Assembly (NCBI RefSeq): GCF_024363565.1
Contig: NZ_JAJEKE010000021.1
Span: 1-64,000, forward strand
Length of the DNA stretch: 64,000 bases
Source: Lutispora saccharofermentans
GTDB taxonomy: Bacteria; Bacillota; Clostridia; Lutisporales; Lutisporaceae
Reading direction: 5' to 3'
In this document: in pieces, positions 31,567 to 40,964 of the stretch
How positions within the stretch are numbered: position 1 is the first letter of the stretch
How the letters are laid out: every line of letters begins with the position of its first letter
Notes under the pieces: model-generated
What the model saw: only the letters and a program-made list of their open reading frames with translations
Databases searched by the model: none
Told to the model about the DNA's origin: nothing
Made by a program: the position numbers and the translations under genes

Positions 31567-32601
31567 ATGGGTGAAAAGTATAAAGTAGCCATATTAACTG
31601 GTGTAGGACAGGCAGAAATCACTGAAAAGGAATTGAGACAGCCTCAAGGACATCAGGTGCTTGTAAAGGTTGACAGCTGTGCAATATGCACCCTTGAACA
31701 GAGAATGTACAATGGAGTTATGAAAAGATACCCATTTGCAGGAGGCCATGAAGCATCAGGAACGGTTGTTGCAGTAGGTGAGTTTGTAAAAAGTTTGAGA
31801 AAGGGTGATAAGGTAGCGGCTAGGCTATTGACTAGCTGCGGTGAATGCTACTTCTGCAGAAGCGGTCATGAAAACCAGTGTGTTATATCCTTCATGGCTA
31901 ATGTACATGAAGGAGTTGGAGGACCTGGAGGATTTGCAGAATACATGATGCTGGATGCAAAGAAGCTTTACAAGGTAGCTGATGACCTGGATTTAACTCA
32001 TGCAGCTCTGGCAGAGCCTCTCGCATGCTGTGTGCACAGCATAAATAATGCAAATATTGGGCTGGGTGAGGACGTTGTCGTGATAGGAGTAGGAATAATG
32101 GGAGCCTTCCATATTAAACTTGCTAAGCTGAGAGGAGCTAGAGTTATTGCATGTGAGGTAGAGGAGGAACGCCTAGAGGTTGCAAAAAAAATGGGTGCTG
32201 ACCTCCTGATTAATTCAAAGAAGGTAAATGCTGTCGATAAGGTAAAGGAACTGACCGAAGAAAGAGGAGCAGATGTGGTATTCTGCACTGCAGCTCTTAC
32301 AAAGCTTGCAGAGGAAAGTATACAGATTGTAAGTAAGGCTGGGCGTGTTATAATGTACTCCTCTTTCCATCCAGACAATCCAATTGACCTTAGCGTAAAC
32401 AAGGTACACTCATCGGAAATGAATATAACAGGCGCTGTAAATGCTAACACCAGAGATTTCCTTGCAGCAACAAGGCTTCTTTCAAGCCATATGGTAGATC
32501 CGTCAATACTTATATCAGAGACAGTTCCATTAGAAAAGCTTGATTATGCTTTTAAGCGTGCAATTGACCCCAAAACATATCGTATAGTAATTAAAGCATA
32601 A
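31567..32601 (+). CDS. Zinc-dependent medium-chain alcohol dehydrogenase
   Basis: The protein has 344 residues, with ATG 31567 behind TAGGAGGAAGC. The catalytic-zinc region has Cys in SCAICTLE and GGHEASG; the structural-zinc loop is CGECYFCRSGHENQC. The NAD(P)-binding motif is VIGVGIMGAFH (about residue 180), with an acidic CEVEEERLE after the second strand that favours NAD. It belongs to the sorbitol/threonine dehydrogenase-like branch (Tdh/GutB group). It should interconvert a secondary or primary alcohol and a carbonyl in the island's pathway. Confidence 0.9.
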   Translation: MGEKYKVAILTGVGQAEITEKELRQPQGHQVLVKVDSCAICTLEQRMYNGVMKRYPFAGGHEASGTVVAVGEFVKSLRKGDKVAARLLTSCGECYFCRSGHENQCVISFMANVHEGVGGPGGFAEYMMLDAKKLYKVADDLDLTHAALAEPLACCVHSINNANIGLGEDVVVIGVGIMGAFHIKLAKLRGARVIACEVEEERLEVAKKMGADLLINSKKVNAVDKVKELTEERGADVVFCTAALTKLAEESIQIVSKAGRVIMYSSFHPDNPIDLSVNKVHSSEMNITGAVNANTRDFLAATRLLSSHMVDPSILISETVPLEKLDYAFKRAIDPKTYRIVIKA

Positions 32602-32740
32602 AGGCTTACACCATATAATCCCAAAATGATGATTGCCCCATAGTATGGGTTGCAATATATACACTAATTCTTACAAATTAGCTTCATAGGGAATCAGACA
32701 TAAAGCTGTGAAATCATAAATTAAGAAAAGGAGCAATATT

Positions 32741-34084
32741 ATGTCAAACAAAGAAAACGGTAAGCTTGGTTTACTAGACAGTACAACCATTCTCATAGGT
32801 GGAATGATTGGAAGTGCCATCTTTTCACTTTCAGGAATGACGATTTTATGTGCTGGTCCTGCCTGTATCATCTCATGGATCATTGCAGCTATCATACTGT
32901 ATGCTTATGGTCTTCAGACAGCAGAACTGGCTACAGTTTATCCGTCCTCAGGAGGAGTTTTCGTATTCCCTGCTGAGGCGCTTGGAAAGACTAAAAAACA
33001 GAAGAAGCTTATAGGATGGATTACAGCATGGGCTTATCTTTTTACTTGCATTGGAGGAGCGGCATTCTCAGCAACCTATGTAGGAACCTACCTTGGAGTT
33101 GGCTTCCCAAGCCTAGCCAATGCACAGATTGTTATTGCCATTGGAACAATTGTAGTCTGTGGCATACTGAACCTGTTTAACATATCTGTTACAGGAAAGG
33201 CTAACACTGCATTAACGATACTGCTTGCAGCTACAATGGTTGTATTTGTTGTAGTTGCTTTGTTCAGTGGACAGTGGGATGCAGCGATGCTTACACCTTT
33301 CTTTACTCAGGGGTCTGCTGGATCGTGGGGCTTCATGAGTGCTATTCCTATAGCAATGGTTGCATATGGATCCATAGTAGCTGTTGCGTTCATGGTTGGA
33401 GAAATCAAAGATCCTAACAAGACAGTACCAAAGGCAATGAGCATTGCAATGCTCATTGTTGCAACCCTTTATATTCTTGTTATGATAGCTGTATTAGGCC
33501 TTGTATCATCACAGTACCTTCAGGAGAATAGTGGAATGGCTTATATACCCTTGTATGCTGCAGCCTTCACAAAGCTGGCATCAATACCATGGCTTATAAA
33601 GCTCATATCTATTTCAGCAGTGTTGGCGCTTATAACCACAATACTTGTTCTTATAGCCCTTGCAGGACGTACCCTTCAGGCTGCAGCAGCTGACGGAGTT
33701 CTTCCGATGTCCTTTGCAAAGAATAATGAGAAAACAAAGGTGCCAACGGTATCACTTGAAGTCGTAATAGTAGTTACCGCCATTCTTACAGTATTCCCAA
33801 GCTTTACTAGCATGATTGTAAACCTTGGCGCACTTTGTAGTGTGCTGGTAGTTGCAGTAATATGCATTTCAGTAATTGCAGCTCGTAAGCGGCATCCATA
33901 TGTTGAAGGAAACTTTAGGGCACCTGGAGGAAATGCTATCCCTGTAATAACAATCGTTGCACTGGTTGCATGCTATGTACCTGACATTATCCGTGGAGGA
34001 TGGCAGATTTGGGCATATACAGCAATATATTTAGTAATTGGTTTGATTATATACTTTATTGGAGCAGGAAAAGCTTCTGACTAA
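32741..34084 (+). CDS. APC-superfamily amino acid/amine permease
   Basis: The protein has 447 residues and 12 predicted membrane helices. The APC signature is near the N terminus (GLLDSTTILIGGMIGSAIF with the GGxIGxxIF substrate-binding motif), and PSSGGVFVFPAEALG and VAFMVGEIKDPNKTVPKAM follow. It is probably a proton- or exchange-driven importer of an amino acid or amine, and it is likely the entry point for the substrate of this island. ATG 32741 follows AAAAGGAGC. A stable hairpin without a T-run follows. Confidence 0.9.
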   Translation: MSNKENGKLGLLDSTTILIGGMIGSAIFSLSGMTILCAGPACIISWIIAAIILYAYGLQTAELATVYPSSGGVFVFPAEALGKTKKQKKLIGWITAWAYLFTCIGGAAFSATYVGTYLGVGFPSLANAQIVIAIGTIVVCGILNLFNISVTGKANTALTILLAATMVVFVVVALFSGQWDAAMLTPFFTQGSAGSWGFMSAIPIAMVAYGSIVAVAFMVGEIKDPNKTVPKAMSIAMLIVATLYILVMIAVLGLVSSQYLQENSGMAYIPLYAAAFTKLASIPWLIKLISISAVLALITTILVLIALAGRTLQAAAADGVLPMSFAKNNEKTKVPTVSLEVVIVVTAILTVFPSFTSMIVNLGALCSVLVVAVICISVIAARKRHPYVEGNFRAPGGNAIPVITIVALVACYVPDIIRGGWQIWAYTAIYLVIGLIIYFIGAGKASD

Positions 34085-34117
34085 TTGAGAATTGTTATAC
34101 ATGTATATTATTACCTG

Positions 34118-34152
34118 GTCATTCTGCCATTTAATTAACATGGCAGAATGAC
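34118..34152 (+). other. Intra-operon hairpin without U-tract
   Basis: A perfect 13-bp stem (gtcattctgccat / atggcagaatgac) with a 9-base AT-rich loop lies between the permease and flavin genes. It lacks a T-run and may be an mRNA processing or stability element. Confidence 0.6.
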
Positions 34153-34206
34153 AATATTGAAAAGAGGTAGTTAGCACTGAAGCATATTTATGGAAATCAT
34201 TATGCA

Positions 34207-35067
34207 ATGTCCAATACCTGCATAGCCTTCGGCGTATTTGATGGAGTTCATGAGGGGCACAAGGCTGTAATAAGTAAACTGATGGAAATGTCAGTTAAGG
34301 GATATACTCCTGTAGTTGTAAGCTTTGAATACGACACTGAATTGCTGCAAGATAAAAAAGTACTTTCAACTGAAATGGAAAAAGAGCATTTGATAGGCCG
34401 GCTAGGACCGGAGTTAATGATTTCATATAAAATAGATAAGCATAATAAGGATAGTGACATAAAAAGCTTCATCAGGGATGTGCTGGTTGAAAGCCTTGGC
34501 GCGAAGGTTATTGTGGCTGGAAAAAATGATTGCAACATAATGGCATTGCGTGAATGTGCCAAAAGTCTGAGATATTGCCTTGAAGAATGCGACACGGTTA
34601 CTTCGGATAGCGGTCCTATTACGTCAGAGCGCATAGCAGCTGAGATTGAAAACAATAATTTGGAAAAGGTAAATAAGCTGTTGGGTCATCCATACATCTT
34701 TATAGGAAAAGTAATGCATGGTAAGGCATTTGGAAGAACTGTTGGCATGCCGACTGCCAACCTTGAATTTGGAGAAAGCAAGCTTTTGCCGGCTTATGGA
34801 GTATATGCAACGCTTTCTGAAATAGATGGCAAAAGTGTAAAAGGACTGACCAACATAGGCAAAAGGCCTTCGGTTGATAATTACGATTATGTGACTATTG
34901 AAACCTTTCTCCTGGATTTTTCAGGTGACCTGTATGATAAAATTATAGAGCTTCAAGTACATGCATTCATCAGGAGTGTAAAAAAATTCAACGGACTTGA
35001 TGAGGTAAAAAGCCAGGTGAACAAGGATATACAGTCCATTAGGGAATATCTTGATAAAATTTCTTAA
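34207..35067 (+). CDS. ribF: RibF-like FAD synthetase / flavokinase homologue
   Basis: The protein has 286 residues from ATG 34207. It has the nucleotidyltransferase motif FGVFDGVHEGHKAV of FMN adenylyltransferases at the N terminus, and the flavokinase block GRTVGMPTANLEF, LLPAYGVYAT, GLTNIGKRPSVDN and ETFLLDF at about residues 180-245. The expected products are FMN and FAD. A ribosome site (AGAGGT 34163-34168) sits too far from ATG 34207 but 8 bases before CTG 34177, in frame, so translation may start there and add ten residues. Its place inside a catabolic operon suggests a flavin-demanding step or a local function. Confidence 0.85.
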   Translation: MSNTCIAFGVFDGVHEGHKAVISKLMEMSVKGYTPVVVSFEYDTELLQDKKVLSTEMEKEHLIGRLGPELMISYKIDKHNKDSDIKSFIRDVLVESLGAKVIVAGKNDCNIMALRECAKSLRYCLEECDTVTSDSGPITSERIAAEIENNNLEKVNKLLGHPYIFIGKVMHGKAFGRTVGMPTANLEFGESKLLPAYGVYATLSEIDGKSVKGLTNIGKRPSVDNYDYVTIETFLLDFSGDLYDKIIELQVHAFIRSVKKFNGLDEVKSQVNKDIQSIREYLDKIS

Positions 35068-35102: not shown

Positions 35103-36596
35103 ATGAACCCACTAGACTATGTAAAAAAGGAACCTTACAAATTGTATATTAATGGAGAATTTGTACCGTCTGAATCTGGCAAGACCATGGATATAATCAA
35201 TCCGGTTAACAATGAGCCATTTGCAAAGGCTTATATAGGTGGAAAGGCAGATGTTGAAAAGGCTATACTTGCTGCAAGAAGGGCCTATGATGAGGGAGTA
35301 TGGGGAAGGATGACTGCCAAGGAAAGATCCAAGTTGATTATGAAAGCAGGAAGAATCCTTGAGAAAAGAAAGGAAGAGTTTGCAGTTCTTGAAACTCTTG
35401 AAGCGGGAAAGCTTTTCGGCAGCTGCTATTACTTTGAAGGGGATATGGCTGTTGATGCATTTGAGTATTGGGCTGGCGTAGCAAGAACTGTTGAAGGAAA
35501 GATGGTTCCATGTAACGAACAAGGAGCATGGAACTGCGTATTATGGCAGCCATTAGGCGTTGTAGGCGAGATCATTCCATGGAACGGACCATTCCTAATG
35601 GGATGCCAGAAAATAAATGGCATACTTGCAGCAGGTAATACGGTTATCATAAAGCCGGCTACATGGGCTTGCACAACCATGTCACTTTTAGCTGAGGTAT
35701 ATCATGAAGCAGGCTTCCCTGAGGGTGTTGTAAACGTTGTAATGGGTCCTGGAGGGGAGTGCGGAAGTGCATTGGCAGAAAGCCCACTGGTAGATATGGT
35801 ATCAATGACAGGCGGTACTGAAACAGGACGCAAGATCATAGAGAAATCTGCGGATACAATAAAGGATATAGCCCTTGAGCTGGGCGGAAAGAGCCCTAAC
35901 ATATTCTTTGAGGACGTAGACATAGATAGGGCAGTTGAATGGGCAAGATATGGCTTCACTCTACATGCTGGGCAGGTATGTGTATCGGGCTCGAGACTGA
36001 TAGTTCATAAGAGCATATATGAGGAATTTATCACGAAGCTGAAGGCAGAGGTTGAAAAATTCGTTCCTGGTGATGGCTTTGATCCGAAGACTACTCTTAA
36101 TACACTTATTTCCAGGCAACACTGCAATAGCGTATGGAATTACATTGAAAAAGGCAAAGCTGAGGGAGCAAGGCTTGTCACAGGAGGAGTGCCATATACA
36201 GATCCAAAGCTTGAGAAAGGAAATTTCGTTCCTCCAACAATATTTGCTGACGTTACTCCAGATATGACCATTTTTCAGGAGGAGATATTCGGACCAGTTG
36301 TTACAGTTACATCCTTTGAAACTGAAGAGGAAGCAATAGCATTGGCTAATAGCACTATTTACGGCCTTGCGGGTGGTATAAATACAAACGATGTAAAGAG
36401 AGCCTTGAGAGCTGTTAATAAGATCCATGGAGGACAGATATATGTCAACTCCTATTTCAGCAAGGCGATGGTTGAGTCACCAGGAACAGGTTGGAAGCAG
36501 AGTGGACTTGGCGTAGCAGGAATACACAAATATATGATATCCAAGACTGTATTCTTTGATACAGTTGAAGGAAGTCAACCACCAATAAGACTTTAG
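35103..36596 (+). CDS. NAD(P)-dependent aldehyde dehydrogenase
   Basis: The protein has 497 residues with the full ALDH fold: the N-terminal YINGEFVPS, the cofactor site PWNGPFLMG and IIKPATW, the general-base Glu in LELGGKSPN (about E259), the nucleophile Cys in HAGQVCVSGSRL (C293) and the C-terminal EEIFGPVVTV. It belongs to the betaine-aldehyde/phenylacetaldehyde-like group (ALDH family 1/2). ATG 35103 follows AGGAGGTAAT. With the two alcohol dehydrogenases it could oxidise an alcohol through an aldehyde to an acid for the Grd-type reductase, as in choline to betaine. That route is inference. Confidence 0.92.
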   Translation: MNPLDYVKKEPYKLYINGEFVPSESGKTMDIINPVNNEPFAKAYIGGKADVEKAILAARRAYDEGVWGRMTAKERSKLIMKAGRILEKRKEEFAVLETLEAGKLFGSCYYFEGDMAVDAFEYWAGVARTVEGKMVPCNEQGAWNCVLWQPLGVVGEIIPWNGPFLMGCQKINGILAAGNTVIIKPATWACTTMSLLAEVYHEAGFPEGVVNVVMGPGGECGSALAESPLVDMVSMTGGTETGRKIIEKSADTIKDIALELGGKSPNIFFEDVDIDRAVEWARYGFTLHAGQVCVSGSRLIVHKSIYEEFITKLKAEVEKFVPGDGFDPKTTLNTLISRQHCNSVWNYIEKGKAEGARLVTGGVPYTDPKLEKGNFVPPTIFADVTPDMTIFQEEIFGPVVTVTSFETEEEAIALANSTIYGLAGGINTNDVKRALRAVNKIHGGQIYVNSYFSKAMVESPGTGWKQSGLGVAGIHKYMISKTVFFDTVEGSQPPIRL

Positions 36597-36611: not shown

Positions 36612-37946
36612 TTGGCGGCATTAAAAGCAATACACTATATAAACCAGTTCTATGCAGGCATTGGCGGAGAGACCATGGCAGATATAGGCCTTCAGGTTTT
36701 TACTGGTACAAAAGGGCCCGGTATGGGACTGGAAAAGCTGTGGAAGGGAGAAATGGAGGTTATAAAGACCATCGCCTGTGGCGATAACTTCATTAATAAG
36801 GACGAAAACTTCGAGAGCGTGGCACCAGAGATTGCAAAAATAATAAAGCAGGAAAAACCAGATGTATTCATAGCTGGACCGGCATTTAATGCTGGACGTT
36901 ATGGAGTAGCATGTGCTAAGATGGCAGATTACGTAAGAAGGGAACTTGGGGTTCCAAGCGTCACAGGCATGTGGCATGAAAATCCTGCTATAAGCATGTA
37001 TGTAAAGGATAATTATATAATATCCACAACTGAGACAGCTACAGGAATGACTAAGTCACTGCCTGCAATGGCAAGTCTTGCTTTAAAACTGGCTAAGAAG
37101 GAAGAAATAGGTCCGGCGCGTTTGGAAGGTTATATTAGGACCGGGCACAGATATAACCAGTACAATAAAAAAACAGGTGCTGAAAGGGTTGTTGATATAC
37201 TGCTTAAAAAGCTGAACAATGAACCTTATGTGACAGAGGTGCCTCTGAGAGGCTTTGAGGTTGTTCCACCAGCACCTAAGGTAGTAAAACTGAAGAATGC
37301 GACTATTGCCCTGCTTACTACAGGCGGACTTGTTCCAATGGGGAATCCTGATAAAATAAGACAGGCATTTGCTACAAGCTATGGAAGGTATGACATGGGA
37401 GGGAAGGACTCTCTTGACCAGGGAGTATACGAATCCATACATGGAGGCTATGACACTACCTATGCTACCGCCGATCCCCACAGACTGGTTCCCTTGGATG
37501 CAATGAGGGCATTAGAGAAGGAAGGAATAATCGGAGGAACATATAGATACTTCTTTACTACCTGCGGTGTTGGGACAAACATTGAAAGCAGTAAGGAGAT
37601 GGGAAGGAGAATAGCTGACGAGTTGTCAAAGGCTGGAGTCGGCGCAGCTTTAATGACTACCACGTGAGGAACCTGCACACGTTGCGGTGCAACGATTACA
37701 AAGGAATTAGACAGGGTTGGAATACCTACTGCTCATATAACTGGCTTTACATCTATAGCACAAAATGTTGGAGCTAACAGAATAATATTCGGCGGTAACT
37801 TTACATCACCTGCAGGAAATCCAAGCCTTCCTCTTGAACGTGAAAAGGCATACAGAAGAAAGATAGTTGAAAAGGCTCTGGCTGTGATTTCACAGGATGT
37901 TCATGAACCGACCATATTCACTGTTGATGAGAGCAAGGAGGGATAA
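36612..37946 (+). CDS. Selenocysteine-containing Grd-type protein B subunit (GrdB/GrdF/GrdH family)
   Basis: The full product is 444 residues, with an in-frame UGA at 37665-37667 read as selenocysteine (codon 352). The frame continues to TAA at 37944. Sec sits in the family motif U-G-T-C-T-R-C, and the following C-terminal 92 residues (GANRIIFGGNFTSPAGNPSLPLEREKAYR, in blocks) match the conserved tail of glycine, sarcosine and betaine reductase B proteins. The N terminus reads HYINQFYAGIGGE, as in GrdB. A hairpin follows the UGA. The start is TTG 36612 behind AGAGGAGAG. Protein B activates the amine substrate and passes a carboxymethyl-selenoether to protein A. Conventional callers will truncate it at 37667. 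The substrate is unassigned; an unprocessed partner subunit favours a sarcosine/betaine-like type. Confidence 0.93.
37665..37694 (+). promoter_or_regulatory. Sec UGA codon with candidate bacterial SECIS hairpin
   Basis: UGA at 37665-37667 is followed, 12 bases on, by the stem CGTTGC (37680-37685) and GCAACG (37689-37694) with a GGU loop. Distance, apical stem and G/U-containing loop fit a bacterial SECIS element recognised by SelB. Confidence 0.75.
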
Positions 37947-37948
37947 AG

Positions 37949-39259
37949 GTGAAGCTGACAAGACAGTATTTTGATATAAAGGACGTAGTATTTGGTAAAA
38001 GATGCTCTCTTTCAGAGGGAGTACTCACTATAAACAAGGAAGAGCTTAAAAGCCAGGTTAGTGATCTGTTCAAGGCCATTGAAGATATAGACTTTGAAAT
38101 AGTAAAGCCCGGAGAGAATGCGCGTATCATACACCTGCTTGATACCATTCAGCCTATGTTTAAGATAGCAGGAAATGGAATGCAGTATTCCGGATTTTTT
38201 GGAACACCTTTTACAGTAGGAGATGGGACAACCAATCTTCTGAAGGGCTTTACAGTTATGGAAAGCGCTGCGCTTCCATGGGATGAATCCAGTGCCAGCA
38301 GCGGACTGCTTTATCCGAGGGATGCAATAATGGACATGACTGGCCCCATTGCTGGATTTACCCCATTCAGCCAGACAATAAACCTTGTGATATTATATAA
38401 GCTGGCCGAAGGCAAATCCTCTATTGAATATGATGAGAACATACGTATGATAGGAGTCAAGGTTTCCACATACCTTGCCCAGCTTACAAAGGACGTAGAG
38501 CCGGATGACAAAGAGCTTTTCAGTATTGACGATATCAATCCTGAACTGCCTAATGTGGTGCTTGTTTGGCAATGCCAGAACCAGGGCCCGTATTCAAACA
38601 CATATCTGTATGGAGAAAGCATAGACAACCTTGTTCCAACTTTGCTTAATCCTAATGAGATGCTGGACGGATGCGTGGTAAGCGGCAATTATGTATGGCC
38701 TGCATTCAAGGTACCAACTTACCTTCATGTTAACCATCCAATCCTTCTTGAACTGTATAAAAACCATGGAAAGACAATTAATTTCAGGGGAGTTATATTC
38801 TGCAGGAGCCACCAGCCTACCAACTGGCATAAGCAGAGATGTGCAAGTTTTAATGTGAAGCTGGCACAGTATCTTGGTGCCAACGGCCTTGTTATGGCAT
38901 GGGAAGGCGGCGGAAATGCTTGCGTTGATGGAATGCTTACCATACAGACAGCTGAGAAGAACGGTATAAAGGCATCCACAATAACCTTTGAATTCGGAGG
39001 CGAGGATGGTACGGAAGGTATACTTCTTGTTGATGATGTGCCAGAAGCAGATGCTATCATTAGCGGAGGCTCCATAGAAAAGCACTACCTGCTGCCCGAT
39101 GTAGATAGGGTTGTTGGAGGAGATTCCCTTAGGCTTAACAAGGAATCGGGAGGCTTCTTCCCACCATCTGATAAGGCTATAGAGTTTGATACCACTACCC
39201 AGCTGTATCTTGGCGGAAACCAAGCAGGAGCAGGCAAAAATTTTGCTGAATCCTATTAA
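37949..39259 (+). CDS. Grd-type protein B partner subunit (GrdE/GrdG/GrdI family)
   Basis: The protein has 436 residues from GTG 37949, two bases after the selenoprotein stop and behind AAGGAGGG. Family blocks are MDMTGPIAGFTPFSQT, QNQGPYSNTYLYG, PNEMLDGCVVSGN, VNHPILLELYKNHGKTINFRGVIF and YLGANGLVMAWEGGGN. In GrdE, as I recall, autocleavage occurs at an SGN-Cys bond to make the pyruvoyl group; here position 248 is Tyr (SGNYVW). It should therefore stay uncleaved, like reported betaine- and sarcosine-type subunits. With the selenoprotein it would form the substrate-specific protein B. A terminator follows at 39298. Confidence 0.88.
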   Translation: MKLTRQYFDIKDVVFGKRCSLSEGVLTINKEELKSQVSDLFKAIEDIDFEIVKPGENARIIHLLDTIQPMFKIAGNGMQYSGFFGTPFTVGDGTTNLLKGFTVMESAALPWDESSASSGLLYPRDAIMDMTGPIAGFTPFSQTINLVILYKLAEGKSSIEYDENIRMIGVKVSTYLAQLTKDVEPDDKELFSIDDINPELPNVVLVWQCQNQGPYSNTYLYGESIDNLVPTLLNPNEMLDGCVVSGNYVWPAFKVPTYLHVNHPILLELYKNHGKTINFRGVIFCRSHQPTNWHKQRCASFNVKLAQYLGANGLVMAWEGGGNACVDGMLTIQTAEKNGIKASTITFEFGGEDGTEGILLVDDVPEADAIISGGSIEKHYLLPDVDRVVGGDSLRLNKESGGFFPPSDKAIEFDTTTQLYLGGNQAGAGKNFAESY

Positions 39260-39297
39260 TGTAATAGAATGTGCATAGTATTCTTGCACTGAAAGAG

Positions 39298-39356
39298 TAT
39301 ACACCGGCAGCCTTGTTGGTTTTTCAGCTCGCAGGATTGTCGGTGTATATTTTTTT
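39298..39356 (+). terminator. Terminator after the Grd-type B subunit genes
   Basis: tatacaccggca pairs with tgtcggtgtata (one G-U pair) around a 28-base loop, followed by TTTTTTT. It separates the B-subunit genes from the short grdA-like gene. Confidence 0.8.
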
Positions 39357-39431
39357 CACAGTCATTTTAAAATTACCTATGGATAGTAGTAAGTATATGG
39401 ATAAAATATCTGGTAAGTAGGAGGTATAGCA

Positions 39432-39713
39432 ATGATATTAAAAGGAAGAAAGGTTATTGCCATTGGCGATAGGGATGGAGTACCAGGACTAGATATTAAA
39501 GCATGTGCAGGAGACCCTACATTTGCAGGTCCTCTGGCAGGTGTGGAGCTTGGCTTAAGAGTTTACCACATTGTAGAGCCTGAGATGAAGAAAGAATTCG
39601 ATTCAGCTGTATATGATGAGCAGTGCGGTATGATGGAAATGGTTCTTGATGTTGACGAGATTATAAAGGAAGTCAACACAATCAGAGCGCAGCATACAAA
39701 GTTTGATGACTAA
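39432..39713 (+). CDS. GrdA derivative lacking the selenocysteine segment
   Basis: The protein has 93 residues, with ATG 39432 behind TAGGAGGTATAG. It opens with [12 protein letters not shown], the N-terminal motif of glycine reductase selenoprotein A. It then jumps directly to [26 protein letters not shown] and [13 protein letters not shown], the C-terminal half of GrdA. About 65 residues are missing compared with the usual ~158, including the CxxU redox motif and the region after it. The frame is intact, the ribosome site is strong and the codons look normal. It cannot carry the selenoether intermediate as GrdA does. It may be a docking or regulatory remnant; a full grdA would have to be elsewhere. 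Confidence 0.85.
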
Positions 39714-39770: not shown

Positions 39771-40964
39771 ATGGTAAAAGCTTATACACAGCTTTTAATG
39801 AAAAAATATATAACCGGGCGAGGAGCCATTTCTTCTCTTGGGAATATGGGTAGAAAGCGTGCAGCCATAGTGCTTGACAGGGGAGTAGTTTCACCTGAAA
39901 ATCTGGATAAAATTACTGGCTATCTTAAGGATGGAGGAACGGAATATCAGGTGGTAGCTGATATCCGCACAGAACCTTACTTTAAGGATATTTTAAAAGC
40001 GAGACAGACAGTAAATGAATTTCAACCTGACATGATAGTAGCTATAGGTGGCGGATCTGTTATGGATACGGCTAAGGCACTTTGGCTTTTTTATGAGCAT
40101 CCGGAGATGCCCTTCGAGGATGCATTTAAGCCGTTTCAGCTTCCGCCAACCACAGGAAAGGCAATCATAGTTGCTGTTCCTACCACCAGCGGTACAGGCT
40201 CAGAGACAACTTCCTGCGCTGTATTTACTAACCAGGATACAAATCAGAAGTCACTGATGCTGGGAAACAACCTTATTCCTGAGTATGCCATTCTGGATGC
40301 TGATTTTACTGATACTCTTCCTGACCATATAGCAGCACAGACAGGCATGGATGCGCTTACTCATGCAATGGAGGCATCTGTAAGTGCAAATACGAGCCCT
40401 ATGGTAGTCACATTAGCCATTTCAGCAGCACTGGACATGTTTGAATATCTTCCTATTTCTGCAGGAACCGGAGCAGAGGGAACAAGTAAATACGAGGCAA
40501 GGGAGAGATGCCACAATGCTGCATCACTTGCAGGAGTGGCCATTACCAATTCCTTCTGTGGCCTTGCACATGCATGCGACCAGCCAGGTTCGTTCTTTAA
40601 GCTTCCTCATGGACTGGTTTGTGGAATGTTCCTTCCATATACTACTGCTCTGGCTTCTCCTCATCCTACATATGCAGCTGTTGCAAGAAGGCTGGGTTGC
40701 AATGGAAAAACCGAAGCCGAGCTATGCAGCCAGCTGGTAGATCATTTATGGAGCTTTACTGAAAAAATGGGGCTTTGCCACAGCTTTAAGGAACTGAATA
40801 TAGATGAAACTGCATACATGGAACAGCTTCCGCTGTTTGTAAAAGCTGCATGTGAATCTATGTCATCCAAACTTTCACCTCATCCTTTGGATGAAGTTTC
40901 AGCTACTAGGCTTTTCAAAGACATATATTATGGCATTAAGCCAGAAGTAGAAAAAAATAGATAG
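39771..40964 (+). CDS. Iron-containing alcohol dehydrogenase
   Basis: The protein has 397 residues of the Fe-ADH family. Visible are the NAD-binding GGGSVMDTAKAL, the motif TTSGTGSETT, and the metal ligands Asp and His in GMDALTHAMEA, His in GLAHACDQPG and His in KLPHGLVCG. It should reduce an aldehyde to an alcohol or the reverse. It follows the grdA-like gene by about 57 bases behind GGGGAGGATT and is probably co-transcribed with it. It could recycle NADH or handle the aldehyde that also serves the aldehyde dehydrogenase. Confidence 0.93.
   Translation: MVKAYTQLLMKKYITGRGAISSLGNMGRKRAAIVLDRGVVSPENLDKITGYLKDGGTEYQVVADIRTEPYFKDILKARQTVNEFQPDMIVAIGGGSVMDTAKALWLFYEHPEMPFEDAFKPFQLPPTTGKAIIVAVPTTSGTGSETTSCAVFTNQDTNQKSLMLGNNLIPEYAILDADFTDTLPDHIAAQTGMDALTHAMEASVSANTSPMVVTLAISAALDMFEYLPISAGTGAEGTSKYEARERCHNAASLAGVAITNSFCGLAHACDQPGSFFKLPHGLVCGMFLPYTTALASPHPTYAAVARRLGCNGKTEAELCSQLVDHLWSFTEKMGLCHSFKELNIDETAYMEQLPLFVKAACESMSSKLSPHPLDEVSATRLFKDIYYGIKPEVEKNR

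Follow-up and report, generated by a model that had tools for sequence, protein, structure and literature searches.

A short GrdA-like open reading frame (ORF) in Lutispora saccharofermentans, located at 39432–39713 on the plus strand of the analysed stretch of 64,000 nucleotides (hereafter the window, contig C14), is most likely a non-catalytic remnant, formed by an in-frame deletion inside a spare and probably acquired grdA, and its loss would be tolerated via the intact grdA on contig C1. The known chemistry requires the selenocysteine (Sec) of GrdA and features a CxxU motif and a division of labour among proteins A, B, and C (PMC13188914). Because of this requirement, and because the farEB operon described below offers a precedent for a shared GrdA, the short gene was judged to be a non-catalytic remnant.

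The short grdA gene and its in-frame deletion

The ORF encodes 93 amino acids from an ATG start codon to an intact stop codon, and a ribosome-binding site AGGAGG (39419..39424, plus strand) lies 7 nt upstream of the ATG, in agreement with the initial annotation, which had described the frame, ribosome site, and C terminus as intact. Its full product joins the first 25 residues of GrdA to the last 68. When aligned with 146 full-length GrdA sequences, codons 1–25 (39432..39506) fall at the N terminus and correspond to beta-1 and helix alpha-1 up to its end in the native model, and residues 26–93 (39507..39713, ending in KFDD and the stop codon) correspond to the C-terminal half at positions 87–147 of the Pfam GRDA profile (PF04723). 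The junction at 39506..39507 was defined by residue spacing and by the structural elements of the native model. The GDRDG-to-GDPTF distance is 16 residues in the short protein versus 80–81 in about 100 other GrdA genes, and therefore 64 codons (192 bp), the CxxU included, are missing from the short gene. The proposed in-frame loss of the selenocysteine segment is thus borne out by the ORF, the spacing, and the Pfam match, with the estimate of about 65 missing residues corrected to 64.

The Pfam GRDA profile matched the short protein in two stretches (2.6e-33, the best at profile positions 87–147) with 115.3 bits, above the cut-off of 22, while the NCBIfam GrdA equivalog model (NF040748) gave 120.7 bits, under its 130-bit cut-off. 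Like the GrdA of both models, the short protein retains the conserved GDRDGxPG and the conserved 11-residue motif of the C-terminal half; unlike them, it lacks Sec and the 64 residues that hold CxxU, beta-2, alpha-2, beta-3, and alpha-3, and no CxxU active site with an in-frame UGA is present in the short gene. Of 36 highly conserved columns retained, 35 are unchanged, and every column of the C-terminal half that is at least 95% conserved is preserved. Since the frame, start, ribosome-binding site, and stop are intact as well, the short gene may have been under purifying selection after the deletion. Three atypical residues, L, D, and K in place of the usual P, A, and E, are grouped at the junction, one of them in a column that is invariant in other GrdA, and these changes could reflect either decay or adaptation.

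Predicted structures

The predicted model of native GrdA (pLDDT 93) contains four strands, and the segment missing from the short protein comprises the end of alpha-1, beta-2 with the CxxU loop, alpha-2, beta-3, and alpha-3. Searches of solved structures with native GrdA revealed no relative, and Foldseek against the PDB gave no significant match. The AlphaFold model of the short protein contains no strands, and its residues 16–30 have pLDDT values below 50; only the C-terminal helices are confidently modelled, with residues 41–90 at block pLDDT values of 87–94. The beta sheet and the active-site loop are gone in this model, which departs from the full-length alpha/beta fold of about 155 amino acids.

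The confidently predicted C-terminal helices, together with the intact ribosome-binding site and frame, the 35 unchanged columns, and the nearby protein B genes, could be read as signs of a functional protein without Sec, namely a non-catalytic adaptor or regulator that has kept the ability to dock to protein B or C through its C-terminal helices. This is unlikely given the loss of the predicted beta sheet, and conservation of the C-terminal half is equally expected after a recent deletion. Somewhat less likely again is the specific version in which the 93-residue protein is translated and, without Sec, docks to or regulates either protein C or a protein B of the GrdF/GrdG type, having arisen in one step by losing the catalytic middle of GrdA; if true, a selenoprotein would have been converted to a non-catalytic partner in one event.

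Origin of the short gene

The C-terminal half of the short protein is closest to GrdA of Clostridiaceae/Tissierellia, sharing 53 of 68 residues (45/68 with the native copy), and the N-terminal part is closest to Caloramator with up to 20 of 25 residues (13/25 with the native copy). Because the native copy is less similar to either half than Clostridiaceae/Tissierellia GrdA is, we infer that the short gene is one acquired foreign-type grdA carrying one deletion, and its source probably lies outside the order of the host. The alternative of a hybrid, with the native grdA as recombination partner, was dismissed, as both halves match the same foreign type. Across 145 full-length genes, the longest words common to the two break regions measure just 4–9 nt, which would fit a microhomology deletion.

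The break regions also bear on whether a full-length grdA exists here in the true genome and 192 bp were dropped in assembly. The junction is seen in one genome only, and with a reported contamination of about 6% the assembly is possibly derived from a metagenome. However, the shared words are far shorter than usual assembly k-mers, both flanks differ from the native grdA and thus speak against a chimera with it, the grouped residue changes at the junction are not expected from a collapse, and the assembly contains no further GrdA match besides the native gene. Assembly collapse, one of the readings offered in the initial annotation, is therefore improbable, since no long repeat exists at the breakpoints.

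Search for the same junction and other decayed grdA copies

Family searches covered about 950 distinct genomes, an estimate from overlapping sets with incomplete sampling, and returned no homologue with the junction of the short gene. A search for other short GrdA proteins had been proposed at the outset, with the lack of such a homologue in any other genome named as an outcome that would speak against the original reading of the deletion. A scan of the collection with the junction peptide among its patterns likewise gave no other such gene among the matches listed. The absence of this architecture from about 950 genomes also argues against a working adaptor. Gap-spanning tblastn matches to query residues 8–92 (L023, L026, L049, and others) were dismissed as short homologues, all being full-length GrdA with TGA.

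The only other internal deletion encountered was an in-frame, independent, and more decayed remnant in genome G586 (contig C2; L187:1060-1200, minus strand), located between grdE and grdB and reported with a stretch of 26 residues. It resembles the short gene in that its N-terminal start is joined in frame to a (G) plus ten-residue segment, and in that an intact grdA is found elsewhere in its genome (C92), but it differs in its junction, in the additional loss of the C terminus, and in its location between grdE and grdB. A further grdA remnant with a broken frame was found on G577:C15, and spare grdA copies thus do decay. As in a gene remnant, the essential residues of the short gene are lost while an intact copy exists elsewhere, and the altered form was not met again in the about 950 genomes searched.

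Gene neighbourhood in the window

The short gene lies downstream of a conserved cluster on the plus strand. Its upstream part, which is syntenic in L127 and L128, encodes a Zn-alcohol dehydrogenase (Zn-ADH), an APC permease, and a RibF-like protein (31567..35067; PF08240, PF13520, and PF01687, respectively), followed by an aldehyde dehydrogenase (ALDH; 35103..36596, PF00171) that is conserved beside GrdF/GrdG in other genomes. Next come a GrdF-like protein B beta subunit (36612..37946; PF07355, 2.8e-139) with an in-frame UGA at 37665–37667 (motif UGTCTRC) and a GrdG-like protein B alpha subunit (37949..39259; PF09338, 1.2e-130). The Sec-containing B subunit that had been described as the neighbour of the short gene is thus present one gene further upstream, and the adjoining gene is the alpha subunit GrdG.

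GrdG of the window (at 38666–38725 within the gene) and its orthologues in L127, L128, L217, and L218 carry SGNY, while the native GrdE carries SGNC, the Cys of which is the supposed pyruvoyl-forming cysteine. Since SGNY occurs in GrdG and since ALDH and alcohol dehydrogenases are encoded nearby, the GrdF/GrdG cluster may act on an X-acetate formed from an alcohol, for which a Schiff base would not be required. In the sister-genus cluster at L127:4918-10369, GrdG is followed by a 432-residue possible regulator without an NCBIfam match, and the cluster also contains an AbgT-family transporter and two amidohydrolase-like genes (M20-type by eye); these genes give a hint of the substrate of the protein-B cluster.

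Between GrdG and the short gene, a strong terminator-like hairpin was found at 39291..39356 on the plus strand (fold −39.7 kcal/mol, z −6.4) with a U-tract at its end, which makes co-transcription of the short gene with the B genes doubtful and weighs against an adaptor of protein B. An iron-containing alcohol dehydrogenase gene (Fe-ADH; 39771..40964, PF00465) follows on the same strand, 57 bp downstream of the short gene. With the hairpin preceding the pair and Fe-ADH close behind, the short gene might be a transcribed remnant kept as the leader of Fe-ADH, its ribosome-binding site and short ORF serving translation coupling only, or nothing; however, promoter-like sites were at chance level in the promoter scan, and this role is very improbable.

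Orthologous clusters without grdA

Clusters orthologous to ALDH-GrdF-GrdG were identified in four genomes (G012, G019, G524, and G736) with GrdF/GrdG identities of 62–79%, and no grdA was found in the stretches examined, although each genome carries grdA elsewhere. The block from Zn-ADH to GrdG recurs in the same order, with 64–79% identity, in two genomes from a related genus, and neither grdA nor a related Fe-ADH was found beside it in the stretches examined. G524 and G736 cluster GrdF, GrdG, ALDH, and an Fe-ADH with 47–49% identity to that of the window. Because the four orthologous clusters lack grdA while each genome has one elsewhere, the ALDH-GrdF-GrdG cluster probably needs no GrdA of its own and the local copy is probably dispensable, with the satellite B component probably served by a shared GrdA. 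Orthologous clusters without any GrdA also weigh against an adaptor.

Selenium and glycine reductase genes of the host

The assembly comprises 4.32 Mb in 37 contigs, with 96.6% completeness and 6.2% contamination. The family search of this genome, one of the checks suggested in the initial annotation, found an intact UGA-bearing grdA at C1:453947-454381, flanked by grdE and grdB in an operon that also contains grdX, trxB, trxA, and the protein C genes; no GrdA match was found in the assembly besides this native gene and the short gene. Three protein-B beta subunits (on C1, C29, and C14) each carry a UGA at the UGTC motif, an additional weaker partial match to this subunit lies on C33, and tRNA-Sec is present above its gathering score. 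Given the UGA-bearing grdA, the glycine reductase operon, the three UGA-bearing B subunits, and the tRNA-Sec, selenium use is intact in the host genome. Among the three readings put forward initially, a trace of a purged selenoprotein A function comes closest: a trace it appears to be, but the function was not purged.

Sec-free and divergent forms of GrdA

A survey in 2006 listed GrdA as having no known Cys-containing homologues (PMC1794560). The Clostridiaceae family search revealed full-length GrdA genes without the stop codon in seven genomes (L221–L227, including L221:7864-8361 and L226:6697-7161, with further genes in L222–L225 and L227), in which CFSC, CFAC, or CFTC stands where CFVU is usual. 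These genes lie behind trxB in all seven, and trxA was detected in five. No GRDB match was found in six of the seven genomes, and the seventh contains only a partial match of 166 residues. The CxxC GrdA is probably functional and may represent the recruitment of GrdA to a redox role that does not depend on Sec. It resembles the short protein as a GrdA family member without Sec, but differs in its full length, its CFxC motif, its position behind trxB, and the lack of GrdB in six of the seven genomes. Since a full-length CxxC GrdA exists, the deleted form looks less like a functional Sec-free design. This side finding may outweigh the short gene in importance. In another locus (L086:3878-4350), a divergent GrdA paralogue (49% to its nearest relative) contains FFVU, in which the Cys of CxxU is replaced and the UGA stays.

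Proposed history of the short gene

These results suggest a path in which an extra grdA would have been acquired from outside the order of the host and placed in a satellite protein-B cluster, between its GrdG terminator and Fe-ADH. Later, 192 bp would have been deleted, possibly through a repeat only a few bases long, and the Sec codon would have been lost together with the CxxU loop and the core of the sheet, leaving a product presumably unable to carry the Se-carboxymethyl intermediate. Because every protein-B component of the cell would obtain its selenoprotein A from the C1 grdA, the loss of the local copy would be tolerated. As Sec is absent, the short protein would be excluded from serving as the Se-carboxymethyl carrier between proteins B and C. 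The deletion, the second, intact grdA, the grdA-free orthologous clusters, and the absence of this junction from the other genomes searched are direct observations, whereas the foreign source of the gene, the use of the intact GrdA by several B components, and the loss of function are inferred.

The sharing of one GrdA has parallels. In the portion of the source consulted, the fluoroacetate-specific B complex encoded by the satellite operon farEB of Cloacibacillus is predicted to use the glycine reductase protein A of the cell, with grdA co-upregulated, and the cysteines from which a pyruvoyl group would form are missing from its alpha subunit (PMC10838667). The farEB genes thus resemble the cluster of the window in being predicted to draw on a shared GrdA and in this feature of the alpha subunit, but differ in substrate and gene content, and that portion mentions no grdA remnant. 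For C. sticklandii, one GrdA is listed alongside two B selenoproteins (PMC3091704). The short gene would thus indicate that a redundant selenoprotein gene can drop its Sec cassette in a single in-frame step. It also lends support to the idea of one GrdA being shared among satellite protein-B operons.
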